From an uncultured Alphaproteobacteria bacterium (GTDB lineage: Bacteria; Pseudomonadota; Alphaproteobacteria; RF32; CAG-239), in assembly GCA_946618745.1 (NCBI GenBank), contig CAMOLN010000005.1, forward strand, positions 1 through 15,092: a stretch of 15,092 bases of DNA, read 5' to 3'. This document shows, in pieces, positions 33 to 15,092 of this stretch (positions are counted from its first letter, which is position 1; each line of letters begins with the position of its first letter). The notes below the pieces were generated by a model. The model searched no databases, was not told the origin of the DNA, and saw only the letters and a list, made by a program, of their open reading frames with translations. Made by a program: the position numbers and the translations under genes.

Positions 33-428
33 ATGGCTGCTGTATTTGAATCGGCATTTACATCATTATCCGCAATTGAAGAAGCTGCAAGAATAAAAGA
101 AAAGCAAATCATTACCGAAGAAGAATACGAAAGAATTAAGCAGCAAGCTTTAAATAAATTAAAACCGAGTAAAGAATCTGATGAAGATGATGAATACAAA
201 AAGCGTAATAGGATCTATTTGGTAATACTGATTATTTTAACGATAGCACCTCCGGCATGTTCCATAAAATTCTTTCCATCACCTTTCGGTACAGTTGCTA
301 CTGTTGCATGGCTGCTTTTTATAGCATATTGTGCTGTCAAAACATTGTGGAATGTATATGGTCCTGGCAAAATACTTGAAAAGCACATTGTCGGTGAAGG
401 TGTGCGAATGGGTAGAAAACGAAGGTAA
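33..428 (+). CDS. SHOCT-like two-helix membrane protein, possibly 5'-partial
   Basis: The 131-residue product has a SHOCT-like segment at about residues 13-43, with the pattern EEAARIKEKQIITEEEYERI. SHOCT is a short helical domain usually found at protein C-termini and thought to mediate oligomerisation. A charged linker (about 45-60) and two hydrophobic helices (about 61-77 and 86-106) follow, and the tail is basic, so the protein should sit in the inner membrane. The start is uncertain. The frame is open to the left window edge (codons encode DEYNSSREDV before the ATG), so this may be the end of a longer protein. Alternatively the ATG overlaps a TAA in another frame (TAATG), as in a coupled start. 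The J-domain gene follows after 19 bases, so the two are probably co-transcribed. Function is unknown. Confidence 0.65.
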   Translation: MAAVFESAFTSLSAIEEAARIKEKQIITEEEYERIKQQALNKLKPSKESDEDDEYKKRNRIYLVILIILTIAPPACSIKFFPSPFGTVATVAWLLFIAYCAVKTLWNVYGPGKILEKHIVGEGVRMGRKRR

Positions 429-447
429 TATACGGTGGAACAGAAAA

Positions 448-1311
448 ATGAGTGCACTTGCTTGGATTATAGGGGGAATAGTAGCCTCTTGGTTTATACC
501 TGATAAATTTGGTGCTTATCAGCTGTTGAGCGAGCAAGGTAAAGAAACGTTTACCGATGCTTGGGCCAGAAGAGAAAAGAAAGCAAATAAAAAGAATGCT
601 TATGACGTATTAGGAATTGAGCCGACAGCAACAGCCGAAGAAATCAAAGCAGCCTATAAGACTATGGTAATGCGGTATCATCCCGACCATAACGAAAGCA
701 AAAATGCCGCATCTCAATTCAGAATTGTCAAAAAAGCTTATGATATTTTACAAGATGAGAAGAAAAAAGCCGAGTATGATGCCAACATACTTCCTCGTGC
801 GAAAAAGGTTTTGCTTGTCGGCTTTTCTATCCAGCAGTTACGGTTGACTTTGGCTAAAAATATGAAGATTGATTCCAAAAAGATTAAATTCACGCAAACC
901 GGTGATGTTTTTATCAATGATGAGTTTTCCGCCTGTTGGTGTGAATTTGGTGGTTTCTTTGTTTATTATGAGCCGCAAAAGCCTAAAAATATTAAGTTTG
1001 ACGATACAATCCACGAGGTTATCCTTTTAACTTCTTACAATATTTGTGAGTTAGAAGAAATGATAGCAATGAATTTCGGTTGTATGTCTTCTGCGATAGA
1101 GCGTAAATATAACGAATTTGATTGGAGTGGCGGAATAGTCTTAAAATATGGCGAGTATGCGCTATGCTGGCGAGAAGTTAATGATGACTACTATGAATAT
1201 TATTGTCCGACAGTTTATTACACTCCTGAAGAAACATCTGCAGAAGAAGATGACTTTGATAAATTTGACTTTTCAGATGAATCCCAAGAAGATGTTAAAA
1301 ATAACAAATAA
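448..1311 (+). CDS. Membrane-anchored J-domain (DnaJ-like) protein
   Basis: The product has 287 residues from the ATG at 448, preceded by GGTGGA 8 bases upstream. An earlier in-frame ATG at 331 lies deep inside the preceding gene and is less likely. A hydrophobic helix at about residues 4-17 should anchor the protein in the membrane. A clear J domain spans about 50-111 (start NAYDVLGIEP) with the essential HPD motif at 78-80, so it should stimulate the ATPase of a DnaK-type Hsp70. It lacks the Gly/Phe region and zinc fingers of DnaJ, so it is a specialised co-chaperone and not DnaJ itself. The C-terminal half (about 120-253) looks like two related units of roughly 60 residues, each ending in a Cys-Trp-x-Glu segment followed by Tyr-rich sequence. 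The last 30 residues are acidic. The client is unknown. Confidence 0.85.
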   Translation: MSALAWIIGGIVASWFIPDKFGAYQLLSEQGKETFTDAWARREKKANKKNAYDVLGIEPTATAEEIKAAYKTMVMRYHPDHNESKNAASQFRIVKKAYDILQDEKKKAEYDANILPRAKKVLLVGFSIQQLRLTLAKNMKIDSKKIKFTQTGDVFINDEFSACWCEFGGFFVYYEPQKPKNIKFDDTIHEVILLTSYNICELEEMIAMNFGCMSSAIERKYNEFDWSGGIVLKYGEYALCWREVNDDYYEYYCPTVYYTPEETSAEEDDFDKFDFSDESQEDVKNNK

Positions 1312-1376: not shown

Positions 1377-2168
1377 TTATTTTTTCTTGCAAATATAAAG
1401 CAAATGCGAGCTGTAACCTTGTTGATCCGATCTCTCACAGGTTAAAAAATGCCATTTCAGAAAGGCTTTATAGCCTTTTTCCGACAATTGCTCTAAATAT
1501 TCCTTCATAACATAAGCAATCCCATCGGTTGCCACATTGGTAATATATTTAGTGTTTGTTTTTTCAAACAATTTTTTGAAATCTTCAATATAAAAACAAT
1601 TAAATACTTCGGCGGGAACATCCTTAAAACGACCGACCTTATCCATTACCTCATCCAAACGCTCAAAACCCAGATGAAGCAATCCGTAACCGCTGGCAAT
1701 AGAAGCACAAGGTATATAAGCAAACATGCAAATTGCATTTTTCTTTGCCACCCGCAACGTTTCACTAATTGCTTGATTTTTATCTTTTTTGTTAAACAAA
1801 TGATACATCGGTCCAAAGTTTAACACCATATCAAAAGATTTATCCGCAAACATACTCAAATCAAGAGCATCAGCAACCATACACTTAAAATTTTTTAATT
1901 TACGTGTTTTGGATTTCATTATTTCAACATGGCGCGGCGTTAAATCAACAGCGGTAACTTCATATCCCATTTTAGCCAAGTTTATGGAATAATGTCCGGT
2001 TCCGGCGCCGACTTCTAATATTTTAGCCCCCGGTTTAAGAAATTTTTGAATATAACGCATAGTGGTCAGATATTCCACATTATGACCTCTGTCGCTGAAT
2101 AAACGTGCATCTTCTTCATATTCTGTATATTTATTTATAATTATGTCTTTATATTTGTTTATGACCAT
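1377..2168 (-). CDS. Class I SAM-dependent methyltransferase
   Basis: The 263-residue product has a Rossmann-fold methyltransferase core. Motif I is ILEVGAGTG (about 50-58), the acidic residue ending strand 2 is D75 in AVDLTP, a motif II-like VADALDL lies near 98-104, and VLNFGPMYHL (about 115-124) fits the active-site strand. It should transfer a methyl group from S-adenosylmethionine to an unknown substrate, probably in the cytoplasm, since no signal or membrane helix is seen. The N-terminal segment before motif I (tyrosine-rich, with VEYLTTMRYI) is the substrate-cap type common in small-molecule methyltransferases. The start is supported by AGAAGG 7 bases upstream of the ATG, and a promoter-like sequence lies about 30-55 bases upstream. 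It is transcribed alone, convergent with the J-domain gene and divergent from the PopZ-motif gene. Confidence 0.88.
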   Translation of the reverse strand: MVINKYKDIIINKYTEYEEDARLFSDRGHNVEYLTTMRYIQKFLKPGAKILEVGAGTGHYSINLAKMGYEVTAVDLTPRHVEIMKSKTRKLKNFKCMVADALDLSMFADKSFDMVLNFGPMYHLFNKKDKNQAISETLRVAKKNAICMFAYIPCASIASGYGLLHLGFERLDEVMDKVGRFKDVPAEVFNCFYIEDFKKLFEKTNTKYITNVATDGIAYVMKEYLEQLSEKGYKAFLKWHFLTCERSDQQGYSSHLLYICKKK

Positions 2169-2781: not shown

Positions 2782-2808
2782 AAAAAACACCTAAAGAGGT
2801 GCTTTTTT
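2782..2808. terminator. Bidirectional rho-independent terminator
   Basis: A run of six A, CACCT, loop AAAG, AGGTG, then C and six T. The stem is flanked by A and T runs, so it can terminate in both directions: the PopZ-motif gene on the plus strand, and anything transcribed from the structured region or tRNA on the minus strand. Confidence 0.75.
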
Positions 2809-2809
2809 A

Positions 2810-2936
2810 TAGTTGGCGGATAGAGTGGAATTGCTTCGTTCACTGCGGCAATCGGCTAAAAGCCGACCGGCATACTTTCGTCTGCCTTTGCCTTGTAGTC
2901 GAACCCACTTATTTTCGTGGCTTCAAATCCCAACTA
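2810..2936. other. Structured stretch with tRNA-Ser 3'-end copy, possible tRNA remnant or small RNA
   Basis: The segment is bounded by a 7-base inverted repeat, TAGTTGG (2810-2816) and CCAACTA (2930-2936). It contains a hairpin TCGGCT-AAA-AGCCGA (2852-2866). Positions 2813-2832 copy the 3' end of the neighbouring tRNA-Ser with a single mismatch, and TCGAACCCAC (2899-2908) repeats its T-arm. Like the tRNA, it is followed on the minus strand by a terminator hairpin. It may be a decayed or interrupted tRNA duplicate, an attachment-site remnant, or a structured RNA. No protein-coding gene is credible here. Confidence 0.4.
2813..2832 (-). repeat. Partial copy of the tRNA-Ser 3' end
   Basis: Positions 2813-2832 match 2975-2994 (acceptor stem, discriminator and CCA of tRNA-Ser plus part of the T-arm) at 19 of 20 positions and in the same orientation, 162 bases apart. 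Direct copies of a tRNA 3' end are the usual footprint of tRNA-targeted integration, but no integrase is visible in the window. Confidence 0.6.
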
Positions 2937-2941
2937 CCAAT

Positions 2942-2971
2942 AAAAAAAAGAGGGCATAAAACCCTCTTTTC
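2942..2971 (-). terminator. Rho-independent terminator of tRNA-Ser
   Basis: On the minus strand, AAAAGAGGG, a 7-base loop and CCCTCTTTT form the stem, which continues into a T tract of eight (2942-2949). It begins 5 bases after the encoded CCA end of the tRNA. Confidence 0.8.
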
Positions 2972-2975
2972 TTAT

Positions 2976-3067
2976 TGGCGGATAGAGTGGGATTCGAACC
3001 CACGGTACCCTTTGAGAGGTACACACGATTTCCAATCGTGCGCCTTCGACCACTCGGCCATCTATCC
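2976..3067 (-). tRNA. tRNA-Ser (anticodon GGA)
   Basis: The minus strand gives a 92-base class II tRNA. The 7-bp acceptor stem is GGATAGA (revcomp of 3061-3067) pairing with TCTATCC (revcomp of 2980-2986), with discriminator G and an encoded CCA (2976-2978). The D-loop has GGCCGAGTGGTCGAAGGC, the anticodon arm ACGATTGGAAATCGT shows GGA, a long variable arm pairs GTACC with GGTAC, and the T-arm is GTGGGTTCGAATCCCAC. The long variable arm is diagnostic of serine. It reads UCC and UCU codons. A terminator follows directly, so it is transcribed as a single gene. Confidence 0.97.
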
Positions 3068-3339
3068 TCAAACCGCTTGCGTCAATCTAAAATATTAAAT
3101 TTATTTTTGCAATATAAAATTGCCGATTCTCGCAAAATATTTATTTTTTTTACCTGATCAATAGTATAACAAACCGATTTTATTAACTTATTTTTCATAA
3201 AAATCGCCTATTATTTATCCTTAAAGCAAACTGTGCTGATTTTACCAAATAACAGTAGGATAATTTAATCGGCAAGGTTGCAAAACAAATGTTAATATAT
3301 TACCATTAATTCTGTGGTTTTATCGGAGAGGTGATTGTT
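3068..3339. other. AT-rich intergenic leader between tRNA-Ser and virB3
   Basis: These 272 bases carry no credible gene. They must contain the divergent promoters for tRNA-Ser (minus) and for the secretion gene run (plus). The sequence is very AT-rich, so many weak -10-like sequences occur. Apart from the plus-strand candidate listed separately, I see no riboswitch, repeat array or other defined element. Confidence 0.5.
3278..3306 (+). promoter_or_regulatory. Candidate promoter of the virB3-virB4 gene run
   Basis: TTGCAA (3278-3283), a 17-base spacer and TACCAT (3301-3306) match four of six bases each of the -35 and -10 consensus. It would give a leader of about 25 bases before the GTG of virB3. 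Evidence is weak given the local AT bias. Confidence 0.3.
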
Positions 3340-3630
3340 GTGCGTGAGATGATATTAAAAGCGGTTGCTAATCCTCCTAAAATATTATGGGGGCCGTTTT
3401 TGCCTGTTATGGTTAATCTCGGATTACAGTTTCCTTTGCTGTTTATGGTGGTCGGTACATTTAATATTAATCCGCTTATATTTTTGTCATCAATACTTAT
3501 CGGGCATGCTTTTTGCATATTCTTAGGAGTAAAAGAACCTCATATTTCCGATATGACCAAAGCCTATGGACAATCAGCTAAAAAAACTAACAATCTTTAT
3601 AAAGTAAAGGGGAATAAATTTGCGCCCTGA
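3340..3630 (+). CDS. virB3: VirB3-like type IV secretion membrane protein
   Basis: The 96-residue product has two hydrophobic helices (about 17-39 and 44-63) and a cytoplasmic tail containing KEPHISDMTKAYGQ, the kind of sequence expected of the VirB3/TrbD family. VirB3 is a small inner-membrane subunit that works next to the ATPase VirB4 and is almost always encoded directly before it, as here. I place the start at GTG 3340 because GGAGAGGTGAT ends just upstream at good spacing; the GTG at 3331 is inside that ribosome-binding site. The gene end overlaps virB4 by 11 bases, which implies translational coupling. It is the first gene of the long plus-strand run. The family call rests on size, topology, tail motif and position, since VirB3 sequences are poorly conserved. 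Confidence 0.8.
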   Translation: MREMILKAVANPPKILWGPFLPVMVNLGLQFPLLFMVVGTFNINPLIFLSSILIGHAFCIFLGVKEPHISDMTKAYGQSAKKTNNLYKVKGNKFAP

Positions 3631-6049
3631 TTTTGACTTTTTATCTATATTTGTTGAAGGTTTATCCGGTGCGGAGATATTTGTCGCTATTGTCGGCTTT
3701 ATTTCAGCGGCGGCTTTTGCCGGATTATGGGCAACCAAATTCGGTTATTTGATATTGCCTCATCCCACTGAATCTCGTGTATCGGACTTTATGCCGTTTG
3801 AAAAATTATTGTCTGACGGAATGACTATTCGTTGTTATAATGGTTCATTGGCTCGAGTTTTTCGCGTCAACGGTATTGATTTAACCTTTGCGCCCGGCGA
3901 AAAAATTGAGTCTATGATGGAAGCGCGCAAGGCTTGGATTGATAATATGTCCGATCTGCAAATTACCTGTCGCGTCATAACAGTCCGTGAAAAAGTTCCG
4001 CTGGAAGAAAATGTTAAAAATTTTAATAATCCTCTGTTGGAAAAAATTTCCGAAGTTTGGGAAGAAAATGTTAATCGTGTGTTTTTCAATACCCACTATA
4101 TTGTTATTTCTGTTCCCGATCGTCGAGATGCACTTAAAGACCTTAATTACGCTTCGCAATCTTTAACTGCAACTTTGAGCGAATACGGGGTTGATGTTTT
4201 GGCCGAAACAGAAGGCTCATCGGCTGATGACAGTCCGTTTTCGTTATATGCTAAATTATGTTCTCCGGTATCGCGGCCTAAACCGCTGGTAGGAAGCACC
4301 GAAGGTGCCCAATTGAATCAAATGCTTACCGCGGATCACATACATTTTACCGGTGAGAACGGTATTATAAAATTTTTTTCCGGTGATAAGGAAAAATATG
4401 AAATAGTTATGGGTATTCGCTCCTCCGGAGATTATGTCGATGAAAGCATGACTGTATCTTTATTGGCAATTGATTGCGAAGTGATTATGTTGCACAATAT
4501 TCAAGCTCAATTTAAGCCGGCGGCTCGGGCATTGTTATTGCATCAACAACGCATGTCCAAAACCACCAGCTTTTCAGCCAACGTTACCGAGCAATATAGC
4601 GAAGCTCTGGCTTCTATAGAGGATAGTGATGCCAACCACCAATCCTTAACCAAATATTCCATGGCTATTCTGTTGCGAGGCGACAGTTTGGAAGAGCTGG
4701 ATTTTGCCGAAGGTGAAGTTCAACGCATTTGCCGACTTTTCGGGGTTACACCGGTTCGTGAAGGTTGGGTAACTCAGGCAACATTTTTTAATCAATTTCC
4801 TACTTATGAAACTTTGCCACGTAATTATCTTTATCTTTCACGTGCAGTTGCCTGTTCGGTGTCATTTGATAAACCTTCCGAAGGTTTTTCCAAATCTGAC
4901 TGGGGTAATGGCGCTATCTCGGTTTTCCGCACCACTTCCGGCTCAGCTTATCGTTTTCAATTCCATGTTTCTTCTGAAGATTCGGCGGTGGCGCACTGTT
5001 GTATTATCGGTCCAACCGGTCAAGGTAAAACTACATTACTGACCTTCTTGGCGGGACAAGCAATGCGTCATGCCGATTTACGCGTATTCTTCTTTGATCG
5101 TCATTTAGGTGCTCGTATTTTCACTCACGCAGTTCAAGGCGCTTATATTGGATTTGATGGCGATGAAAAAAATGTGTCGCTCAATCCTTTTGATTGTCCG
5201 AATACTCCCAACAATCGGGCCTTTTTACGTCGCTGGATGCGCGCGATAACTTTGGTGGATGATCCTGTTTCTGAAAAAGAAATTGCTCGTGCGGTAACCA
5301 CTGCTTTTGATTATTTGCGTCCTGAAGAAAGAGTCATGACCAATCTTTATAAAAGCTGCTTTTCGCCGACCGGTAATATGCGCCGAGAATTATTCAAATG
5401 GATAAACCCTGATCAGTATGGTAATATATTCAATGGTGTAAACGATAGCCTTGATTTGAAAAGCAAAAGATTTATGGCTTTTGATTTTACTCATATCTTT
5501 GAAGATGAAACTCTGGCTCCCGCAGTTATCAGTTATATCATGCACCGTATTCAAACCGAAACAGGAGAAACGGGTGTTCCTTCGTTAATTATGATTGATG
5601 AAACAGCACCTATGCTAAAGCATCCGATGTTTAGAGATTACTTCATTATTGGTCTGCAAGAGGGACGTAAAAAGCGTCAGGCTTATTTATGCGCGTTTCA
5701 ACAACCGAGTATTATTGATAAATTGGGAGTAGGCGAAGTTATTCGCGGTCAATGTCAAACGGTTATCTTTTTCCGCAATCCTCAAGCAACTCCCGAGGAT
5801 TATGCCAACTGGAATTTAACCGATTCGGAAACAGATTTTATTTTCGGACGGTCTTATCGCGATTTTCCTTATGCGGTTTTGCTTTCGAGACCAGCCACCG
5901 GAGAGTCGGTAATTTTAGATGTCGACTTAAGTGGTTTAGGTCCATATCTTAAAATCTATAATTCCGGACGCAAGAATGTTTTGCTGGTTGAAGATTTGGT
6001 CAAAGAATATGGCGAAGAAAATTTTGTTACAAAATATTTAAATCTTTAG
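3620..6049 (+). CDS. virB4: VirB4-family type IV secretion ATPase
   Basis: The 809-residue product has the length expected of VirB4/TrbE ATPases, which power substrate transfer and pilus or channel assembly at the inner membrane. A hydrophobic segment lies near residues 19-38. The N-terminal CagE/TrbE/VirB region follows, and the C-terminal RecA-like domain carries Walker A GPTGQGKTT (464-472), Walker B LIMIDE (656-661), the family QQP motif (694-696) and FFRNP (717-721). All key nucleotide-binding residues are present, so it should be active. The start is TTG 3620, with AAGGGG 7 bases upstream; it overlaps virB3 by 11 bases. The exported-protein genes begin 77 bases after the stop. No coupling ATPase (VirD4) or VirB11 is visible, so substrate type, DNA or protein, cannot be told. 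Confidence 0.96.
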   Translation: MRPDFDFLSIFVEGLSGAEIFVAIVGFISAAAFAGLWATKFGYLILPHPTESRVSDFMPFEKLLSDGMTIRCYNGSLARVFRVNGIDLTFAPGEKIESMMEARKAWIDNMSDLQITCRVITVREKVPLEENVKNFNNPLLEKISEVWEENVNRVFFNTHYIVISVPDRRDALKDLNYASQSLTATLSEYGVDVLAETEGSSADDSPFSLYAKLCSPVSRPKPLVGSTEGAQLNQMLTADHIHFTGENGIIKFFSGDKEKYEIVMGIRSSGDYVDESMTVSLLAIDCEVIMLHNIQAQFKPAARALLLHQQRMSKTTSFSANVTEQYSEALASIEDSDANHQSLTKYSMAILLRGDSLEELDFAEGEVQRICRLFGVTPVREGWVTQATFFNQFPTYETLPRNYLYLSRAVACSVSFDKPSEGFSKSDWGNGAISVFRTTSGSAYRFQFHVSSEDSAVAHCCIIGPTGQGKTTLLTFLAGQAMRHADLRVFFFDRHLGARIFTHAVQGAYIGFDGDEKNVSLNPFDCPNTPNNRAFLRRWMRAITLVDDPVSEKEIARAVTTAFDYLRPEERVMTNLYKSCFSPTGNMRRELFKWINPDQYGNIFNGVNDSLDLKSKRFMAFDFTHIFEDETLAPAVISYIMHRIQTETGETGVPSLIMIDETAPMLKHPMFRDYFIIGLQEGRKKRQAYLCAFQQPSIIDKLGVGEVIRGQCQTVIFFRNPQATPEDYANWNLTDSETDFIFGRSYRDFPYAVLLSRPATGESVILDVDLSGLGPYLKIYNSGRKNVLLVEDLVKEYGEENFVTKYLNL

Positions 6050-6067
6050 TTTGGGGAACGAAAATAT

Positions 6068-6096
6068 TTGGAGTTTGGTTTGTTAAGTAGTATAGT
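6068..6096 (+). promoter_or_regulatory. Candidate internal promoter before the exported-protein genes
   Basis: TTGGAG (6068-6073), a 17-base spacer and TATAGT (6091-6096), which matches five of six -10 bases. It sits in the 77-base gap after virB4, the largest gap in the gene run, so the exported proteins could also be expressed separately from virB3-virB4. The -35 match is only three of six. Confidence 0.35.
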
Positions 6097-6126
6097 AAAA
6101 TTAGGCTCACTATGAGGAGACGGACG

Positions 6127-8124
6127 ATGAGATTGCGAATTTTGGTTGTTGTGCTAATGCTACTGATGCCGCTGAAGGCTCAGGCCGCAATTACATGGGA
6201 TTTCGGAGCTATTTCCGGAACGATTCAAAACGTTGTAACCAATGTTAAAACCGCGATTGATACTGCCAAATCAACTGTTTTAGAATGGAAATTTATTCAA
6301 CATTTAGGTTCTTGCATTTCAACTGTTGCCGAGTTTTTCCAAAATGTCCGAAATGAGTATGATAGAATTAGGAATATGTACCTAAAATGGCGTGAAGATA
6401 TTGTAAACTTCCAAAAGAGTATTAAAGATTTTTATAACAGTACAATGGATGTTTATAAAGCTGCACTTGATACGGTTGAAAATATTTCTGAAATAGCCAC
6501 CAGAGTCCAGGTATATCTAAACGAATCTAAAGACCTTATTCAATATATCGGTGCTACCGTAACCAAATGTGTAGACAATACTGTAGAGCTTGTAAAATTC
6601 AAAAAACATTTTAATGAGCAGAAAGAGGAATTAAAACAAACTATTGAATTTCATCGGGCTGAGAAGGCCGCTTTGGAACAGGAATTAGCCGCATTAGAAG
6701 CTAATCCTAATAGCGATTCCAACGAAATTACCAACAGCATACGCGATACAAGAGAGAGAATTTATATCCTAGATGGCCAAATCAATAATTTTTTGGGAAC
6801 TCTTGATGATATTGATAATCAAATTGTCAACTTTATTATGTCGCAAAAAGGACTTGTTTACGAATGTATTGATGATGTTCGAATGATCAGAGGACGTGTA
6901 GATCGTTTGTTGTGCAATATAAAAAATACCGAGATTAAAGGTTTTGAAAGTAAGATTAACCAAATCGGTAACAGTATAAATAACTGGGGCAATAGCATTT
7001 TGCAATTAAATAATACGACTCAGGATTTAAAAAATGACTTTACCGAAGGTTGTGCTAATGTAGATATGATTTTGGATAGTTGTTATTTATGCGACAAGGA
7101 CCGAACAAATAATAAAGAAGCCTGCAATAAATGTAATATTTGCAAACCTACCCAAGGCGAAACTCTTTCCTATGCTCCGTTACCATCCGGTAATGAGAAA
7201 TGCGAAGAAAAAATTCGTGAAATATTAGGAGCTCCTGGAGCTGAAAGTTGTTTGTCTTATAAAAATACCTGTGAAGAACAAATTAGTAAAGGTAATCCAT
7301 ATTCTAATACTTGTGAAATAAGTTGTAGTCCTTTATGCGGAACCATAGATCCGGGAAGTCAAACCTGTTGCAATATTTACAATTCTAAATGCAATGTCGG
7401 TAAAGAAAATTATTGCGATAAATACAGAGAAAATTGCAACGGCGGTCAAGGAGGCGGACAGATAAGTTTCAACTATTCCGTTTCCACATCTTCTGCCACG
7501 GCTTATGCCTTTTCTATAAATAATTTAGGTGATGCCAAAAGCGGTAATGATGAATATGGCAACCTGATAATCCCCGATAATATGGCGGCTTGTTGTCAAG
7601 ACGATTCTTCTGACGCATTAAAAGATGGAGAAATGTATAAGTGTATTAATCGTTTTATCACCGCAGCCTATACAGAGGTAGGAACAGAAATTTCCGAAGA
7701 TGATAAAATTTTCTTTCAATGTTTGCGTCGAACAATAAATCGAGATAAAGATTTTAAAGATATAAGAGATAGAACAGGTTTTACCGATCTTAAAGATTTT
7801 GATCCGCAAGTTCGTTCTTCTGATAATAAGGCAGCTGCAATGTTTTTAGAAGAGGCTTATGCCGAGTATCTTGCCGGAGCTTATTTAGATGCTTTGCGAT
7901 CCTACCAAGACTCTCTGGAATATGCGAACGAAATTGCTAAAGAGAATAATTCCTCATACAAAGATATCGGATCAAATTGGGTTGCTGTTGGTAATATGAA
8001 CCTTAAAGTTAATAATCGCATCAATGAAATCGGAAAAATATGGGCACGTGAACAATTAATTCGTGCGGTCAACAAGGCGCGTAATTATAAAATCTCGTCA
8101 AAGGAAAAAACTGATGCAAAATAG
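6127..8124 (+). CDS. Secreted Cys-rich coiled-coil protein of the T4SS cassette
   Basis: The 665-residue product starts at ATG 6127, because AGGAGA lies 6 bases upstream; an in-frame ATG at 6112 has no such site. A Sec signal peptide covers residues 1-20 (cleavage after KAQA). The mature protein begins with a long helical region (about 25-300) including a heptad-like coiled coil near 155-240 rich in Glu, Lys and Leu. A Cys-rich block (309-437) carries 17 cysteines, with CxxC pairs such as CYLC and CNKCNIC, followed by a Gly-rich linker, a further CC pair (489-490), and a helical C-terminus (about 565-655) that vaguely resembles a TPR hairpin. The protein has about 25 cysteines, so disulfide bonding in the periplasm or at the surface is likely. 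I do not recognise the family. Its N-terminal helices loosely recall VirB5-type pilus-tip proteins. Its end overlaps the next gene by 11 bases. Confidence 0.85.
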   Translation: MRLRILVVVLMLLMPLKAQAAITWDFGAISGTIQNVVTNVKTAIDTAKSTVLEWKFIQHLGSCISTVAEFFQNVRNEYDRIRNMYLKWREDIVNFQKSIKDFYNSTMDVYKAALDTVENISEIATRVQVYLNESKDLIQYIGATVTKCVDNTVELVKFKKHFNEQKEELKQTIEFHRAEKAALEQELAALEANPNSDSNEITNSIRDTRERIYILDGQINNFLGTLDDIDNQIVNFIMSQKGLVYECIDDVRMIRGRVDRLLCNIKNTEIKGFESKINQIGNSINNWGNSILQLNNTTQDLKNDFTEGCANVDMILDSCYLCDKDRTNNKEACNKCNICKPTQGETLSYAPLPSGNEKCEEKIREILGAPGAESCLSYKNTCEEQISKGNPYSNTCEISCSPLCGTIDPGSQTCCNIYNSKCNVGKENYCDKYRENCNGGQGGGQISFNYSVSTSSATAYAFSINNLGDAKSGNDEYGNLIIPDNMAACCQDDSSDALKDGEMYKCINRFITAAYTEVGTEISEDDKIFFQCLRRTINRDKDFKDIRDRTGFTDLKDFDPQVRSSDNKAAAMFLEEAYAEYLAGAYLDALRSYQDSLEYANEIAKENNSSYKDIGSNWVAVGNMNLKVNNRINEIGKIWAREQLIRAVNKARNYKISSKEKTDAK

Positions 8125-8935
8125 GTCTCTTATTTTGAAATTAGGTTTAATGGCAGCCCTTTTCTGTTCGGCAATGGCTAATGCTGAAGAGCCAGAAAAC
8201 AATAGTTCGGAAGAAAATATTAAAATTGAAGCTCCTGGCACTACTAATTGCGATGGTAATGATCCTAACAGCGGACTTGTTTTAATCCCGGAAGAATGGG
8301 TTAAGCGGTGCAAATTATGTTCGGCCGGCGGTGAATTGGAATTTGATTACGATTGTCTGAAAAGATTGGCTTATGATTTCAAATATCAACCGGATCAATA
8401 TAATCAACAATTTGAGGCCGTGCTGAAAATGTATATAGAAAATGATTTAAAATATTCTTTGATGCGGCTGACTGAAACAGGTCAGAATACCACCAAAGCC
8501 AAACAGGATGCCGGTTATGGCGGAATTTTGCAAGAAGCTGCTAAACAAGTTATGAGCGAATCAGGTTTGACAAATATTGTAGCTCCCCAAGACAAAGATG
8601 GTAATTTCATAAATCGTGCTGAAAATGGTTTATCCAAAGATAAAGATGGAAATATTCTACAGAGTAATGTTGAGAAATGTGTGGATGATCAAGGTGAAGA
8701 CAGTGGACGTTGTGCTATGGAAGCCAATAACCGTATAACTACTCAAACCGCTAATATACTCAATAAATTGCTTGCCTCGGCCGCTATGATAGAACGAGAA
8801 GATGTAATTGATAGTCTGGTCGGTTATGTTTTACCGAACACTGATGTTAATAAGAATAACAAAGCTCTTATTCTTCCAAGTGATAAAGATGCCGAAGATG
8901 TTAACAAATCAAACAAGGAGAAAACTAATGAATAG
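8114..8935 (+). CDS. Secreted protein with CxxC and paired DKDGN motifs
   Basis: The 273-residue product starts at ATG 8114, with AAGGA 8 bases upstream. Upstream in-frame starts lie inside the preceding gene and would spoil the signal peptide. The signal peptide spans residues 1-24 (cleavage after MANA). The mature part has cysteines at 46, 66, 69 (CKLC), 81, 189 and 200, an even number that fits disulfides. A helical stretch lies around 84-150. DKDGN occurs twice (160-164 and 176-180), resembling partial calcium-binding loops, though neither is a full EF-hand. The C-terminus is polar and probably disordered. The family is unknown. The gene overlaps its upstream neighbour by 11 bases and its downstream neighbour by 8, which ties it into the cassette. 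Confidence 0.82.
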   Translation: MQNRSLILKLGLMAALFCSAMANAEEPENNSSEENIKIEAPGTTNCDGNDPNSGLVLIPEEWVKRCKLCSAGGELEFDYDCLKRLAYDFKYQPDQYNQQFEAVLKMYIENDLKYSLMRLTETGQNTTKAKQDAGYGGILQEAAKQVMSESGLTNIVAPQDKDGNFINRAENGLSKDKDGNILQSNVEKCVDDQGEDSGRCAMEANNRITTQTANILNKLLASAAMIEREDVIDSLVGYVLPNTDVNKNNKALILPSDKDAEDVNKSNKEKTNE

Positions 8936-9725
8936 ATTTGTAAGCATCTTTTTATTAACAATAAGTTTGGTATTTGTTAATTCGTCTAATGCCCGTGCCG
9001 GAACTGATATCATTAACAACCTTTTGATTAAAGCAGGCAATGTGGTTGATAATATTTCCTTAAAATATCAAGAAATATCAATGGAAATAAGTAAAATTAC
9101 CGAAGGAAAAATGTTTCAACTTGATGATACCACCAGTGATTTAATCCGTAATGCAATTGATGATTATTATTTAGTACAAGCCAAAATTAATCGAATTAAA
9201 GAAGATGTCGAATTAGTCAAGTCTGTTTATTATGACGCGGTTGACTACTATAATCAAGCTAACGAGCGTATAAATAATGCTAAAGAAAAAGCTGAAGAAT
9301 TTTTGCATAAACGTGGCTGGTTTAATCGAGATGATGATGAAGATGATGAAGATGATGAAATCGGTAACGTCACTACACCTCGCACAATAGATGATAATGG
9401 TAGAATTGATGATACGGATAATGACAGATTGAGTAGGGAAGACGATAATAGCCGCCGCGGAAGCAGCGATAACAACAGTCGCGGCGATAATAACAACTCA
9501 CGTGGCAATAACAACACTACCCGCGGCACTGGGGATAATAACAGCCGTTCCGATAGTCAAAGTGATGACAATATGCTCAAGAAACCGGGTAACAACGAAA
9601 TAAATTATGGAGCAATGCAACCATCTCGCCGCAGTTTTATCACTGATGATGATTCATCAATTGATCAAAATAAAAATGCTTCATTAAACAATCAACTCTC
9701 GGAGGCAGTAAATGCTAAAAAATAG
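8928..9725 (+). CDS. Secreted helical protein with Asn/Ser/Arg/Gly low-complexity tail
   Basis: The 265-residue product starts at ATG 8928, with AAGGAG 7 bases upstream. The signal peptide spans residues 1-24 (cleavage after ARA). Residues about 25-128 form helices with a periodic pattern (SLKYQEISMEISKI, YYLVQAKINRI), similar in style to VirB5 or TrbJ N-terminal helices. An acidic run follows (135-144, almost all Asp/Glu), then a low-complexity region (about 165-215) built from units such as DNNSRG, DNNNSRG and NNNTTRG. The C-terminus is also polar. There are no cysteines, unlike its neighbours. The tail is likely to be disordered and could act as a flexible linker or surface-exposed region. 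Function is unknown. It overlaps the genes on both sides (8 and 14 bases). Confidence 0.82.
   Translation: MNRFVSIFLLTISLVFVNSSNARAGTDIINNLLIKAGNVVDNISLKYQEISMEISKITEGKMFQLDDTTSDLIRNAIDDYYLVQAKINRIKEDVELVKSVYYDAVDYYNQANERINNAKEKAEEFLHKRGWFNRDDDEDDEDDEIGNVTTPRTIDDNGRIDDTDNDRLSREDDNSRRGSSDNNSRGDNNNSRGNNNTTRGTGDNNSRSDSQSDDNMLKKPGNNEINYGAMQPSRRSFITDDDSSIDQNKNASLNNQLSEAVNAKK
9420..9572 (+). repeat. Degenerate in-frame repeat coding for NSRG-type units
   Basis: About 50 codons encode imperfect 6-8-residue units made of Asn, Asp, Ser, Arg and Gly. The units differ in length and in synonymous codons (CGC and CGT for Arg), so this is an aged repeat, not a recent perfect duplication. Confidence 0.6.
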
Positions 9726-10368
9726 CCGATTTTTTGTTATAACTTGTTTGTTGCTGTTTGGTTGTTTTTTATCATCCGGCCGGTCGGCTTTTGCCGATAA
9801 TTTAGATGACTTGCTAAACGGAGCAAAAGAAATGGGCGATTTTTTGGCTAGCGGTAAAGGAGCAGAATATTATAACGATAAAGTATCGGTTATGAGTGCT
9901 GTTTCAGGACAACCGGTTTATGTATGGAAAACTCCGTTGGGAGATGATAAAGATGGGGTTAATGTTGATAATAACAAACTTAATCGCTGTAAAATTATTA
10001 AGACGCTTAAACCTGGAGAACTCGAAGTTATGAAAGCTCGTCACAATACCGAAGCTTTATTGTCCAGATATGCCACTGATTTATATGTAGAATCAGTGGA
10101 AACGGAATTTGACCTTGATAGAGAAAAGCCTGTTGCTGGAGTAGCGCATAGCGCTGAACAAACTATGGTCAAACGTGAAATTTTAGCTCGTTTGGCTAAT
10201 ATTGCCACCCGGCTTAATGTTATAGTTTCATTAGAGGCGCGAACCGCCGCTATGGATAATATTAATAAATTGAGCAAGGTTGGGGCTTTTGTATTCGGTG
10301 ACTATGAGTATAATGTTAAAGACGGCACTTGCGAGATGTCATCAGAAACGGATAATAACGGAGGATAA
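9712..10368 (+). CDS. Secreted protein of unknown function in the T4SS cassette
   Basis: The 218-residue product starts at ATG 9712, with GGAGG 6 bases upstream, and overlaps the preceding gene by 14 bases. The N-terminus is a signal peptide, cleaved most plausibly after SAFA (residue 28); LFGC at 15-18 is a poor lipobox but leaves a lipoprotein possible. The mature protein has a short beta-like segment (QPVYVWKTPLG, about 67-77), a DKDG motif near 79-82, then a predominantly helical region (about 105-190) with MKARHNTEALLSRYATDL and REILARLANIATRLN. There are two mature cysteines (93 and 207), which could form one disulfide. I do not recognise the family. Its place inside the overlapping run points to a periplasmic or surface part of the same apparatus. 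Confidence 0.82.
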   Translation: MLKNSRFFVITCLLLFGCFLSSGRSAFADNLDDLLNGAKEMGDFLASGKGAEYYNDKVSVMSAVSGQPVYVWKTPLGDDKDGVNVDNNKLNRCKIIKTLKPGELEVMKARHNTEALLSRYATDLYVESVETEFDLDREKPVAGVAHSAEQTMVKREILARLANIATRLNVIVSLEARTAAMDNINKLSKVGAFVFGDYEYNVKDGTCEMSSETDNNGG

Positions 10369-10373
10369 CTGTT

Positions 10374-11816
10374 ATGAAAAAATATCAAAAATATGCATTA
10401 CTGACAGTTATTTTATTTGGTCTGATTTTTCCGTTAAGATCTGCCGATGCGCTTATTCCGTTTGAATTCACTTTTCCTGAAACTGCCGGAAAAATTGGCA
10501 CATGGATTCAAGAAAAAATTACTTGGGTGCAATTACAAATTTCTTCCATCAATAACAGTAAAGTAGCTCTCAAAATCGGTGACGGATTGAAAATCGCTCG
10601 CGAAGTACGTAATTGCATTCGTAAGGTTTATATAGGAAAGCCGGTTAACAAATTGAGTGAATATTACCAAAGTTTCACTTTTCCGGAGAGTGATCCGTGT
10701 AGTAGATATACAAAAAAATATCCTTTTCTTGCTAATCTTTTGCGCATAACAGGCCAAACTCAGCAGATTCTCCGTGAAATTAAAAATGAAGATGTTTATA
10801 TAATAATGGACACAGCACGTAAAGTTGCTGATGATGCGGTGCTTATTACCGATCTTGAGGAGCAACGAGAACAGCAAATCCAAGCAGTAGAAGATAAAGC
10901 TGAACTTGATAGGGCAACTATTGATGCAAAAATAACTATGGCCGAACAAAATTTAGCAATGTTAAAAAAAGAACGTGATGAACACGAAGGTACTCCTGAA
11001 GAAGAAAATTATATCAAGATGATTGCTGACGCAACAGTAGAATTAAATATGCTCAAGGCAAAAAAAATAGAAATTGGTGTTCGAGCAACTGAAGATAAAG
11101 CCCGTATAACTAATCAATTTTTGTTGAAAATTAACGAAGTCAAAGAGAGACATTTGGCAAATTCGGCATTACTAAAGAAGTATAAAGAAGAAAGAGATAA
11201 AATACGGCAAGAAAGAGAAGCTGAAAGAATAGCAAATGCACTTGATTTAGCTATTGAGGCCAAGAAAAAATATAGTGCCGATATTTCCAATGATGTAAGA
11301 GATACTATGAAAAAATCGTTAAAACGAGCTGAAAATATTAAAAATGATTTTACTAAAAACATCGTTGCCGCTCTTAATGAAAGCAATGACTATATTGCTT
11401 ATGCCCATGATCCGGCCAATAATCCGGAAGTAGATGCTAATCTGAGTGGTACCGGCGAAGGTAAAAAGGAAGCTTTACAGGGTATGATTGATAATACTCT
11501 ACGCCAGATAGATGTAATTGAAAAAATTATTAATGAGGAACTTACCTCTTTAGAAAAACGAACCATGCGAATAATCTCGCAGAATATCAATCATCGACTT
11601 GATCATAAAAAACAAGAAGGTGAAAAAAGTCTGATAATTGACTTTTGTCGTTATCAGGTAGGCAGAAGTTATACCAGATCTTTCAAGGGAAAAGCTGAAA
11701 ATAAAAAAGATAAAAATAGTAAAGACGAAGACAAGAAAAAACAAGAAGATAATAAAAACAAACCGGATAATAACGAACCGGATAATAGCAAGCCTGAAAC
11801 AGGTGAAGAATGGTAG
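10374..11816 (+). CDS. Secreted long coiled-coil protein with charged tail
   Basis: The 480-residue product starts at ATG 10374 with GGAGG 9 bases upstream, 5 bases after the previous stop. The signal peptide spans residues 1-26 (cleavage after SADA). The mature N-terminal domain (about 27-135) contains a repeated FTFPE motif (32-36 and 101-105) and cysteines at 81 and 109. A long, Glu/Lys/Ala-rich helical region (about 135-335) is interrupted by a likely turn near 205-210, consistent with an antiparallel coiled coil or rod. A second helical segment (about 360-420) follows, then a cysteine at 425 and a very polar Lys/Asp/Asn tail (about 437-480). I do not recognise the family. A structural role spanning the periplasm or projecting from the cell is inference from the coiled coil and the signal peptide. 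Confidence 0.85.
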   Translation: MKKYQKYALLTVILFGLIFPLRSADALIPFEFTFPETAGKIGTWIQEKITWVQLQISSINNSKVALKIGDGLKIAREVRNCIRKVYIGKPVNKLSEYYQSFTFPESDPCSRYTKKYPFLANLLRITGQTQQILREIKNEDVYIIMDTARKVADDAVLITDLEEQREQQIQAVEDKAELDRATIDAKITMAEQNLAMLKKERDEHEGTPEEENYIKMIADATVELNMLKAKKIEIGVRATEDKARITNQFLLKINEVKERHLANSALLKKYKEERDKIRQEREAERIANALDLAIEAKKKYSADISNDVRDTMKKSLKRAENIKNDFTKNIVAALNESNDYIAYAHDPANNPEVDANLSGTGEGKKEALQGMIDNTLRQIDVIEKIINEELTSLEKRTMRIISQNINHRLDHKKQEGEKSLIIDFCRYQVGRSYTRSFKGKAENKKDKNSKDEDKKKQEDNKNKPDNNEPDNSKPETGEEW

Positions 11817-11845
11817 TTCGGATTTTGGGGCAAAGGAGAGGAAAA

Positions 11846-14800
11846 ATGAGACGTAAATTTTGGACATTATTAACCGCCATAGCAATTATATTGGCGCCAA
11901 AAACTTCCTCAGCTCTTATATTAAAGGCTATTGAAGAGGCTTACAATGTTATACCTTTGTCTCCGGTTATCAATTTTGGTGAAGATATTGCCGAAACCGG
12001 TAAATTGCTTAATAAAACCGCAATGAAAGTTCAAAAACTTACTATCCAGATAAAAAAAGATATTATCAACTTAAAAATTGCCCTTAATGATATTGCATTA
12101 AAAATAGAAGCTCTTTTTGCGGGTGATTTTGGTGTGCTCACAGGTCTTTTTAGCCTTTCTGAAGAAAAAGAAAAAGTTGAAGTCTGCGGTGTAAATATGG
12201 CAGATACCAATCATGACGGCATGGCGGGCAAACTTCAAGAAATTTTGTTAACTTACGGCATTGGCGAAAAAGAAATTGTTGATCGTAATCGTCGCAAATT
12301 TTATTTAGATAATGTTTATAATATCTATGCTGCAGTTCAAGTGTTACGTTACAATCTTTCCGATGATGGAGATATAGGACAGAAAATTACAGCTGCACAG
12401 CTTTGTTGCGGTGAAGGTCAAGGAGCAGATTGCGGACTTCCGGTTATACAAGGTAGCAATAATAACGATGATGAAGGCTTGATTGAAATGCAAATGTATT
12501 ATGGCTACGCTTTAGGGGCTCTGGAAAATCTTATTAAAACTTGGGAGAGAGTTGCTGCTCTTAAAGCGCAGCTTCAATCTGTTGAAACTATAATGGACAT
12601 AGAACTTAAACCTGATTTTTCTGAAGATACTACCGATACATCTTGGGTTGAACCTGCCAAATCAGCTAAAATATATGCTTCCGCTCAAACGTCTTATAGC
12701 CAACCTTTGGCATTTGCTCAAATGATTTACAATGACAGTAAGGCTTTTGATTTTGAAGAAATCATTAATGAGGATGACAAGACAACTTCTCCGGGAGGTT
12801 TTACCGGTATGGGTTTGAAATTTAGCCGTCCTGAATCCACTTTAGCTCCTTCAGCCTTTGCCCAAAATAAAGAGGAGATGGAAAGTTATCGAGAAATTAC
12901 GGATATAGAAAATACTTTATCAAAAGCAATTTCTATCCATGGTAAAATCAGAAACATTGATGAATATCAAGAAACTGCCAAACAGCTTAAAAGTCTTCAA
13001 GAACAATATGCTAAAAAACTTAAAATTCTTGAAGATTCTAATCAGTGCGGACGTGATTACGTAGCTCGCTATTTTCGTAATCCCGATGAGGTATGGACGG
13101 GAATGAATCGAAAATTAACCTCGGAAGAAATCAATAATTATGATATTCGTAAAGGTATATCGGGTTGGGCAATAGATGCCTATGAGTTTGCCAAAGCCGC
13201 TGAGGCCAGCATTGATTTCAATGATAATAATTTTGATAAAAAAGAATTTAAAGTAGAAGCTGCAAATTATAAATCCGCAAATGAAGAAGAAAAAGATTCT
13301 CAAGTTACAAAAGCTTCTGGTGAAGGCGTGGATATTTCGAAAGTCAATCAAAAGGCCAATGAGCTTTCAGGAAACGATCCTGAAACAAATCTGGATGATC
13401 TTGCAGAAGAAACTATAGATGATAAAGACCAAACACCGGGAGAGTCTAATTTGCAAGATATTGAAGACAAAAAAGTCAGCGTCAATGAAGATAAATATAA
13501 TAAAGGTCAGGGAATAAGTGAAGAAAAATCAAAAGCTACTCAAGATGAAAATCGCAAGGCGACAATGATTGCTTGGCATATCGGCGCATTAGCTTCGGAA
13601 GATTTAGGACTTAATGCCGGTCCCAGCACTGATGCAGAAAATCCTCAATGGGGAATTACTAATGATCGAAAAATGATTTGGAGTGATGCTAAGATTTTTT
13701 ATGACCAATATCTTGAGCGCAAATATAAAAATATTAAAAAATATCTCAAAAGGTATATAAAAGCTGATATAATTGAGCTGTTCATATCAGTGCTTAAAGG
13801 TCAGGTTAAGAATATCAATCAAACGGACTATCAACAAAAATTGAATGAATTGCATACTGCCGCCAGAGCAGCATTGGATGCTCAAGAAAGTGAGGCCGAA
13901 GAAGCTAAAACCAAAGCATCTGATGATCTGGAACAACAAAAAAAAGAAATAGAAATAAAAATAAACCAATTATCCGAAGATGTTAAAAACTTAACTCAAG
14001 AGATTGCCGGTATGGTATTTAATGCTGAAGAAGGTGCTTACACTTCAATCGATGAAATCGTATCTACAAAAATTAATTATTTAGCCGAAGAAGATGTTAA
14101 GCAAAAACAGGATTTAGACAATCTTAAGAAAGATAGTGTAATTGAAAATAAAATAGTAGATAAGAAGAGTTTTAATATAGCCTACAATACAGATGATAAT
14201 GGTCAGACAAAATCTCAAAAAGAAGGTATGCTAAGAGCAAAACAACAAGCTCTCGAGGCTGCCCGAAAAGAGTTAGACGATGTAAACCAAGCGATTGCCG
14301 CCGCTATATTAGATGCACAAGAAAAAGCAGCATCTTCTCAAAATACTGAAGAAATCAGTGAAATTATCCATAATTTCACATCATTAAACCCTAACGGATA
14401 TAACCGAACAGCTGAAAATAATCTTTCATCAATTATTGAAACCGTTTTTCCCAATGAGAATTTATTCGGCAGAAATAGGATAAAAAAACAAATCACGAAT
14501 GTTGCAGAAGATATTATCAACACCTTAAATAGTGAGATAGACAAGGTAGTAGATGAAGGTCTTGTTGAAATACATAAATTAGGTGATGATTTATATCTTC
14601 CGGAATCATCTAATCGAGTTAAAGAAATTCATAAAGAAATTATTACCAAACTTAAGGGAATAGCCATAGTTGGAACAGCTGTCGGATATTCTCTTCCTTC
14701 CGGCATTACTTTAGCCTCTCTAATTACTATGAATACTGATCCTGATATTGGATTTTTTGTCGGAGCCATACCGGCAGAACGCGATTTCAAATCGCCTCGT

Positions 14801-15092
14801 CCTATGGAAGATTTCAGCCAACCTCCGGTTCGTGAAGTTTTTCACTTTGATATGACCGACTTTGCTAATATCAAACCTTATGATGAGGACAGATATAAAA
14901 AATATAGTAATAAAGTATTTCATATGAGTGATGATAAGAAATTAGCCGCACGTGCTATAACTCGCGGTGATTTCTTGAACTATGGTGGTAAAGTTCCTGA
15001 TTTATGGAAAATGATGTTGCAACGTAAAGCTTTTATTGAAACAGAATTTAAGCTGAAGGACGCTCTTAATCAAGGTTGTGAGGATGTAGCTC
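11846..15092 (+). CDS. Giant secreted protein of the T4SS cassette, 3' end outside window
   Basis: The reading frame opens at ATG 11846, with AAGGAGAGG 5-6 bases upstream, and stays open for 1082 codons to the window edge, so the protein is longer than this. A signal peptide covers about residues 1-23 (cleavage near TSSA). An N-terminal helical region (about 24-95) is followed by cysteines at 114, 187, 188 and 195, with a DTNHDG loop (120-125) that fits the first half of a calcium-binding loop. A middle part (about 435-555) is acidic and low in complexity, a coiled coil lies near 665-730, and one moderately hydrophobic stretch occurs near 937-965 (IAIVGTAVGYSLPSG). It is the largest gene of the run and begins 29 bases after the previous stop. 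It could be an outsized scaffold, or a VirB6-like protein whose membrane part lies further downstream; nothing visible settles this. Confidence 0.85.
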   Translation, partial: MRRKFWTLLTAIAIILAPKTSSALILKAIEEAYNVIPLSPVINFGEDIAETGKLLNKTAMKVQKLTIQIKKDIINLKIALNDIALKIEALFAGDFGVLTGLFSLSEEKEKVEVCGVNMADTNHDGMAGKLQEILLTYGIGEKEIVDRNRRKFYLDNVYNIYAAVQVLRYNLSDDGDIGQKITAAQLCCGEGQGADCGLPVIQGSNNNDDEGLIEMQMYYGYALGALENLIKTWERVAALKAQLQSVETIMDIELKPDFSEDTTDTSWVEPAKSAKIYASAQTSYSQPLAFAQMIYNDSKAFDFEEIINEDDKTTSPGGFTGMGLKFSRPESTLAPSAFAQNKEEMESYREITDIENTLSKAISIHGKIRNIDEYQETAKQLKSLQEQYAKKLKILEDSNQCGRDYVARYFRNPDEVWTGMNRKLTSEEINNYDIRKGISGWAIDAYEFAKAAEASIDFNDNNFDKKEFKVEAANYKSANEEEKDSQVTKASGEGVDISKVNQKANELSGNDPETNLDDLAEETIDDKDQTPGESNLQDIEDKKVSVNEDKYNKGQGISEEKSKATQDENRKATMIAWHIGALASEDLGLNAGPSTDAENPQWGITNDRKMIWSDAKIFYDQYLERKYKNIKKYLKRYIKADIIELFISVLKGQVKNINQTDYQQKLNELHTAARAALDAQESEAEEAKTKASDDLEQQKKEIEIKINQLSEDVKNLTQEIAGMVFNAEEGAYTSIDEIVSTKINYLAEEDVKQKQDLDNLKKDSVIENKIVDKKSFNIAYNTDDNGQTKSQKEGMLRAKQQALEAARKELDDVNQAIAAAILDAQEKAASSQNTEEISEIIHNFTSLNPNGYNRTAENNLSSIIETVFPNENLFGRNRIKKQITNVAEDIINTLNSEIDKVVDEGLVEIHKLGDDLYLPESSNRVKEIHKEIITKLKGIAIVGTAVGYSLPSGITLASLITMNTDPDIGFFVGAIPAERDFKSPRPMEDFSQPPVREVFHFDMTDFANIKPYDEDRYKKYSNKVFHMSDDKKLAARAITRGDFLNYGGKVPDLWKMMLQRKAFIETEFKLKDALNQGCEDVA

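Follow-up and report, generated by a model that had tools for sequence, protein, structure and literature searches.

The contig analyzed here (C5, 15,092 bases, referred to in its entirety as the window) belongs to an alphaproteobacterial genome assembly of 1.12 Mb in 197 contigs that is 85% complete, and it carries the virB3 and virB4 genes of a type IV secretion system (T4SS) followed by six genes for exported-type proteins, E1–E6. On balance, these six genes probably form an exported, target-facing module of a chromosomal VirB-type T4SS. The original prediction, made from the window alone, had described virB3 and virB4 followed by six genes on one strand and had suggested a divergent secretion machine with lineage-specific exported parts. 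The description is borne out by the open reading frames (ORFs), which run from 6112 to the contig end on the plus strand throughout, and the suggestion is supported by a related genome (G009), in which the operon continues through virB8–virB11, and by protein family D, represented by E6, which was found only together with virB4. The features of the window are as follows.

virB3, 3349..3630, plus strand: putative small inner-membrane T4SS protein with two hydrophobic segments; ATG start.
virB4, 3620..6049, plus strand: VirB4 ATPase, PF03135 over cut-off; TTG start.
E1 (family A), 6112..8124, plus strand: exported protein in the virB5 slot with a long helical body, a Cys-rich part, and a C-terminal domain.
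E2, 8114..8935, plus strand: exported protein, copy of the family A C-terminal domain.
E3, 8928..9725, plus strand: exported protein, probably equivalent to the N-terminal half of family B and ending in a low-complexity tail; the least secure assignment.
E4, 9712..10368, plus strand: exported protein, C-terminal half of family B.
E5 (family C), 10374..11816, plus strand: exported helical protein with a charged tail.
E6 (family D), 11846..15092, plus strand: giant exported protein, truncated by the contig end.

The gene spacings from virB4 onward were +62, −11, −8, −14, and +5 bases, and then 29 bases if E6 starts at the ATG at 11846; a purine-rich stretch precedes the start of most of the six genes. 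The likely starts of E2 and E3 are the ATG codons at 8114 and 8928, respectively, and not the upstream GTG or TTG codons, and the sixth gene is incomplete, being cut by the contig end; both points correct the original prediction. Each of the six proteins has a single N-terminal hydrophobic core and no second stretch at the threshold used, so that the signal peptide claimed for every gene was recovered by hydropathy as a signal-peptide-like start. The label "Cys-rich" is appropriate for E1 and partly for E2 (25 and 7 cysteines), but not for E3–E6 (0, 4, 3, and 6 cysteines, respectively). "Mostly helical" agrees with the structure models of E1 and E6, which are almost wholly helical, although both are of low confidence. 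The E1 model had a predicted local distance difference test score (pLDDT) of 61 and a predicted template modeling score (pTM) of 0.33, and its Foldseek likenesses were of a generic helical kind.

The assignment of virB4 is certain, and its product matched TIGR00929 (VirB4_CagE) with an E value of 2.9e-111, though under the strict cut-off of that model. The window's virB3 had no match in Pfam or NCBIfam at E up to 1, the limit applied to all window proteins; its identity is suggested by its position, its size, and the weak PF05101 (VirB3) match of the G009 orthologue (78% identical; E 0.015, below cut-off).

For comparison, 111 genomes were examined, comprising 35 of the same genus, 28 of other genera of the family, one order-mate (G063), and 47 at the class level. 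The closest named relatives come from gut and rumen metagenomes, with records titled Alphaproteobacteria, proteobacterium, Rhodospirillales, or "Azospirillum sp. CAG:239"; the group is known as RF32. A virB4 match, counted per genome at E up to 0.001, was found in 67 of the 111 genomes (26/35, 28/28, 1/1, and 12/47, respectively). Of the 63 family members searched, 54 had a match, and two of these (G007 and G048) contained short fragments. Fragments aside (one of 23 residues in the genus), identity to the window's VirB4 was 80–90% in the genus and 66–82% in the rest of the family.

Plus-strand ORFs of at least 130 aa between virB4 and virB8 were read in 73 named loci, 42 of which reached virB8, and proteins with an N-terminal hydrophobic core by hydropathy were regarded as exported-type. 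In all 42 loci, virB4 was followed by an exported block and then by virB8; the gene order is therefore conserved in relatives, and its recurrence argues that the arrangement is not due to chance. Among the 185 proteins in this interval, 184 had an N-terminal hydrophobic core and none had a further transmembrane stretch. No gap of more than 300 bases was observed in the interval, and no minus-strand ORF of 130 aa was left after overlap filtering. The block consisted of four genes in 30 loci, five in 7, and six in 5; in 19 loci of the genus, partly from the same genomes, 16 reached virB8, and their blocks contained six genes in thirteen cases, five in two, and seven in one.

Hidden Markov models (HMMs) of four families, A–D, were built from thirty four-gene operons. 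D was present in all 42 loci, where it is the last block gene, and B, C, and D were found in this order by the HMMs in most other members. The first gene was the most variable, and in several five-gene loci the first gene matched nothing and the second matched A. D ranges from 900 to 1,800 residues, and block proteins reach 1,803 aa. In a profile search, D matched in 55 of the 111 genomes, and all 55 were virB4-positive. Within the genus, it was found in 25 of the 26 virB4-positive genomes and in none of the 9 virB4-negative ones, the exception (G001) having virB4 only on a 3-kb contig; among the other family members it was found in 27 of 28, the exception (G048) being 59% complete. When eight of the nine virB4-negative genus members were searched for a VirB11 orthologue, seven had none and G011 had one; PF04610 (VirB6/TrbL) had no match in five of these eight (G013, G020, G026, G029, and G031) and one to three in the other three. 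The block belongs to the T4SS machine.

The relation of E1–E6 to the four families was examined by profile comparisons using mature sequences with a reversed control. With single HMMs, E1 matched C (2e-12) and A (2e-9), E3 matched B (2e-7), and E6 matched D (6e-116), and no match to A–D was obtained for E2, E4, and E5. When sets of E1–E6 from the genus were used, A matched the E1 set at 100% over 464 columns (E 1.7e-38), with a high reversed control (89.2%, E 2.2e-6) that is attributable to the coiled coil. The E2 set matched the C-terminal domain of both the E1 set (98.7%, E 4.1e-16, reversed 0.5%) and A (98.0%, E 1.5e-13, reversed 0.1%). B matched the E3 set at 84.6% (E 6.8e-6, reversed 12.9%), and its C-terminal half matched the E4 set at 97.6% (E 3.2e-12, reversed 0.2%); the B HMM also matched E4 counterparts in genus members with E down to 6e-17. 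A matched the E3 set as well, at 97.2% but with a reversed control of 78.0%, which makes E3 the least secure of the assignments. C matched the E5 set at 99.8% (E 2.3e-27, reversed 18.6%), and D matched the E6 set at 100% (E 3e-180, reversed 55.7%). These comparisons show the six genes, as far as profiles can tell, to be a local form of the basic set A-B-C-D, represented by E1+E2, E3+E4, E5, and E6, respectively.

The remainder of the machine was most completely seen in G009, where the gene order is three VirB2-like genes, a reductase-like gene, virB3, virB4, six exported genes, two virB8 genes, virB9, a gene for a 1,102-aa protein, a gene for a 1,523-aa VirB10/TrbI protein, virB11, and four more genes. 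One of the VirB2-like genes was over the PF04956 cut-off and two were below it, and PF04335 (twice), PF03524, PF03743, and PF00437 were matched over cut-off. VirB9 consists of 558 aa and has a sub-cut-off SPOR match. The consecutive 1,102- and 1,523-aa proteins, the second of which contains the VirB10/TrbI domain, both carry beta-flower (Bflower_2) repeats (L106:4104-11982) and may constitute an unusual extension of the core complex. In the window's own genome, E6 aligned to residues 1–1026 of its G009 counterpart and the first ORF of contig C114 to residues 1026–1346, and this remainder of D is followed on C114 by virB8, virB8, and virB9, the last being the single virB9 match in this incomplete genome, to which the virB9 search was confined. 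Other contigs carry two VirB2-like genes (C50), two VirD4-like genes (C38 and C32), and at least two VirB6-like genes (C45 and C104), with two PF04610 matches over cut-off. The search of this genome (85% complete) for the orthologous virB11 found nothing, and it did not include virB10. Of the components missing from the window, the own genome thus supplied two virB8 genes, virB9, and VirB6- and VirD4-like genes, and G009 added two virB10-side genes and virB11.

PF04610 matched in 37 of 58 genomes, over cut-off in 35 of them, and the ORFs read had 5–9 hydrophobic segments; 23 of the 26 virB4-positive genus members had four or five matches and the others had one or two. VirB6, which had been reported as not visible, is indeed lacking in the window but is present on other contigs of the same genome; it is displaced, not absent. 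The contrast previously drawn with the rickettsial virB3-virB4-virB6 order is not supported, given these multiple TrbL/VirB6-like matches. The VirB4_CagE kind of VirB4, VirB8–VirB11 in one locus of G009, and the VirB6/TrbL protein together indicate, on sequence grounds, a VirB-type (P-type) T4SS. VirD4-like genes numbered up to two per genome among genus members; they may serve another role, since they are kept in all eight virB4-negative members searched, while G008, which does bear the T4SS, gave no match for them. PF03432 relaxases were sought in 22 members (21 of the genus and G063): none of the 22 had a match over cut-off, and G018 had one below it; other relaxase families, including MobF, the type of R388 itself, were not searched.

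Two further observations were made on the pilus side. In the virB2 group, the final gene varies as much as the exported block does; it encodes 570 aa in G009 (joined 4837-6549), 1,709 aa in G002 (joined 6821-11950), and 1,275 aa in G024 (joined 3427-7254); the pilin-domain match, recorded for G009 only, was below cut-off. In addition, a type IVb-pilus-like operon is located on contig C1 of G009 at about 204.7–214.8 kb (L183:6663-16832), approximately 15 kb upstream of the virB2 genes, with a PilS/bundlin-like pilin, T2SSF, a T2SSE ATPase, PilO, a secretin, and TcpQ over cut-off. In most genus members with the T4SS, the VirB11 query also picked up the ATPase of this operon, which was unmatched in the eight virB4-negative members searched.

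The block changes faster than the conserved components of the machine. Between the window and G009, identities were 90% for VirB4, 78% for VirB3, and 41, 33, 30, 50, 37, and 45% for E1–E6, respectively; between G009 and G024 they were 95% for VirB11, 74% for VirB9, 57 and 71% for the two VirB8 proteins, 22–40% for E1–E6, and 27% for the third VirB2-like gene. Across six close pairs, the ratio of nonsynonymous to synonymous divergence (dN/dS), where dS was computable, was 0.05–0.26 for block genes, 0.00–0.01 for virB4, and 0.01–0.02 for the first virB8 gene (virB8a), although many dS values exceeded 1 and several could not be computed. Thus, although the block changes faster, purifying selection acts on it on average. 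In the pair L145/L153, dS was 0.27 for virB4 and 0.28 for E3, but 1.61–2.85 for E1, E5, and E6, so that synonymous divergence differs up to about tenfold among the genes of one operon; this contrast suggests exchange or recombination of block alleles.

Whether the first block gene is a VirB5 was considered in view of its position. The slot after virB4 is occupied by virB5 in R388 (NC_028464) and by a PF07996 gene over cut-off in the class-mate G066, and E1 lies directly after virB4 with a Sec signal-like start and a helical, low-confidence model. The A profile matched 113 mature VirB5 sequences at 41.5% (E 2.7e-4, reversed 0.6%) at matching N-terminal columns. Among first genes, 65 of 90 have a P-x(1,3)-D motif right behind the signal peptide, as have 74 of 110 VirB5 sequences; it is rarer in the other block genes (100 of 321) and in control ORFs (49 of 237). 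These counts come from related sequences and are not independent. The first gene of G063 matched TIGR02791 (VirB5; E 0.0015), TrbJ (E 0.0027), and DUF4141, in register and below cut-off. The best matches of relatives' first genes to VirB5 models were below cut-off. The slot is therefore VirB5-like by its position and, family-wide, by slight similarity.

Several results weigh against VirB5 ancestry and against the target-facing reading of the block. E1 itself lacks the P-x(1,3)-D motif and matched neither PF07996 nor TIGR02791 at E up to 1, and the VirB5 comparison gave 2.3% for the genus E1 profile, 6.4% for the first gene of the five-gene type, 0.5, 1.1, and 4.2% for B, C, and D, respectively, and 21.1% (reversed 4.9%) for the C counterpart of the five-gene type; E1 was accordingly not filed as VirB5, given the missing motif, the missing profile match, and the 2.3%, and B–D were assigned to no family. 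With a VirB5 HMM, 456 mature block proteins gave 66 matches versus 65 for reversed sequences at E up to 10, and besides the true VirB5 of G066 the best match was 1.1e-4 (G063_1), compared with 3.2e-4 for the best reversed one. The first gene of G014 had a PF07996 match (E 5.1e-4), but two equally strong ones occur at unrelated places in other genomes, and the profile search that matched the first gene of G063 also matched SMC-type coiled coils in more members. Foldseek with the E1 and E6 models found nothing at E up to 0.001. At the class level, only 2 of the 12 virB4-positive genomes had a D match and 10 had none, which implies that D marks this lineage's own system and not virB4 at large; G084 (VirB4 62%) has five exported genes of its own in the block position, most of them without a match to A–D.

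Some exported protein would be expected at this place, since R388 has virB5-virB7-virB6 there; the surprise of the block is the number, size, and novelty of its proteins. In characterized systems (PMC12857230), VirB5 is modeled as a pentamer standing on one of VirB6 and comes to lie at the tip of the pilus, and a role in adhesion is attributed to it. By analogy, Sec would export A–D to the periplasm, where A, in the virB5 slot, and probably others would assemble on VirB6 platforms, of which there are several paralogues. The assembled proteins would form the stalk and tip of the VirB2 pilus and carry a target-cell binding surface, which could explain why the block diverges much faster than the ATPase. 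We infer a target-contact module from fast-changing VirB2-like and VirB5-slot genes over a conserved engine, as in Bartonella Trw; delivery of substrates is also conceivable, because VirD4-like genes exist. A bolder version, which we offer tentatively and regard as rather improbable in its entirety, is that A–D form a heteromeric stalk and tip, derived from or replacing VirB5, each on one of the four or five VirB6 paralogues, as a large exchangeable target-recognition head, with the core extended by beta-flower repeats and the machine lost together with the neighboring type IVb pilus.

Of the other explanations, the most serious, though doubtful, is that the block supplies the core complex with accessory ring or periplasmic scaffold subunits and does not make up the tip or stalk. 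The Cag and Dot/Icm machines have such species-specific core-complex proteins. D would suit this role, being large, rich in nearly invariant residues, kept in all loci reaching virB8, and placed directly before virB8, and the core is itself unusual in its long VirB9 and two beta-flower-repeat proteins; the weak VirB5 link of A points the same way. Against this stand the divergence of the block, which is faster than that of virB8, virB9, and virB11, and the fact that the first genes of the family, though not that of the window, share the VirB5 N-terminal motif. It is unlikely that the proteins are instead substrates, i.e., adhesins or effectors that are secreted by the T4SS or left in the periplasm and merely encoded beside it. 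Rapid divergence, Cys-rich and low-complexity tracts, and a gene number that varies by fission and copying would be in line with substrates, but genes for effectors tend to be dispersed over the genome, and substrates that depend on VirD4 mostly have no Sec signal, whereas every complete locus has this set in one and the same position. Since D was detected in no genome without a virB4 match, a role as parts of the machine is likelier than one as free effectors. Least probable by far are divergent counterparts of the F-type pilus-assembly proteins (TraF/H/N/U/W and TrbC): the presence of several Sec-exported, partly Cys-rich proteins in one T4SS operon would fit, but the window's VirB4 matches VirB4_CagE far better than TraC-F-type (E 8.8e-10), and searches of Pfam and NCBIfam at E up to 1 linked none of the six proteins to an F-type family.

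Among the papers listed by literature searches, no title or displayed abstract describes the block or the system, although record titles show that genomes of the group are common in gut and rumen metagenomes. If the block is a contact head, its natural fissions, copies, and allele differences would allow one to ask how a T4SS chooses its target, and they would indicate that extensive remodeling of the virB5 slot is possible.

On the 5′ side of virB3, the window contains a DnaJ-domain protein gene (331-1311, plus strand), an S-adenosylmethionine-dependent methyltransferase gene (1377-2168, minus strand), and tRNA-Ser(gga) (2976-3067, minus strand); plus-strand ORFs overlapping the latter in antisense (2799-3157) are unlikely to be genes. 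This side differs in G009, where the virB2 genes and the reductase-like gene occupy the place upstream of virB3.

Among known systems, R64/IncI plasmids have a thin type IVb pilus comparable to the pil-type operon near the T4SS of G009; in G009, by contrast, the neighbor of that operon is a VirB-type transfer system. R388 Trw (NC_028464) resembles the present system in its order virB2-B3-B4-(B5-B7-B6)-B8-B9-B10-B11, but it has one 226-aa VirB5, whereas the present loci have 4–7 exported genes and VirB6 elsewhere. The rvh system of Rickettsiales is likewise alphaproteobacterial and chromosomal, with duplicated virB8 and multicopy virB6; according to PMC2653234 and PMC11077975, it is further marked by duplications of virB4 and virB9 and by the lack of a VirB5 analogue. 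Here, one virB4 match occurs per virB4-positive family genome, and a large exported block, VirB5-like by position and weak similarity, fills the virB5 slot; the VirB5 fold is described as a helical bundle with a globular part in PMC2653234. A close parallel in mode of change is the Trw system of Bartonella: according to PMC2883598 and PMC3406051, its VirB2 and VirB5 genes are present in multiple copies and outpace the other components in divergence, and its VirB5 (TrwJ) lies on the surface and binds erythrocytes. Both are VirB-type T4SSs with fast-changing VirB2-like and VirB5-slot genes. Bartonella Trw is described there as lacking a coupling protein, whereas VirD4-like genes exist here; TrwJ is about 26–27.5 kDa by calculation, whereas block proteins are up to 1,803 aa long; and TrwJ is a VirB5, whereas VirB5 resemblance in the present block is seen only in family A as a profile.

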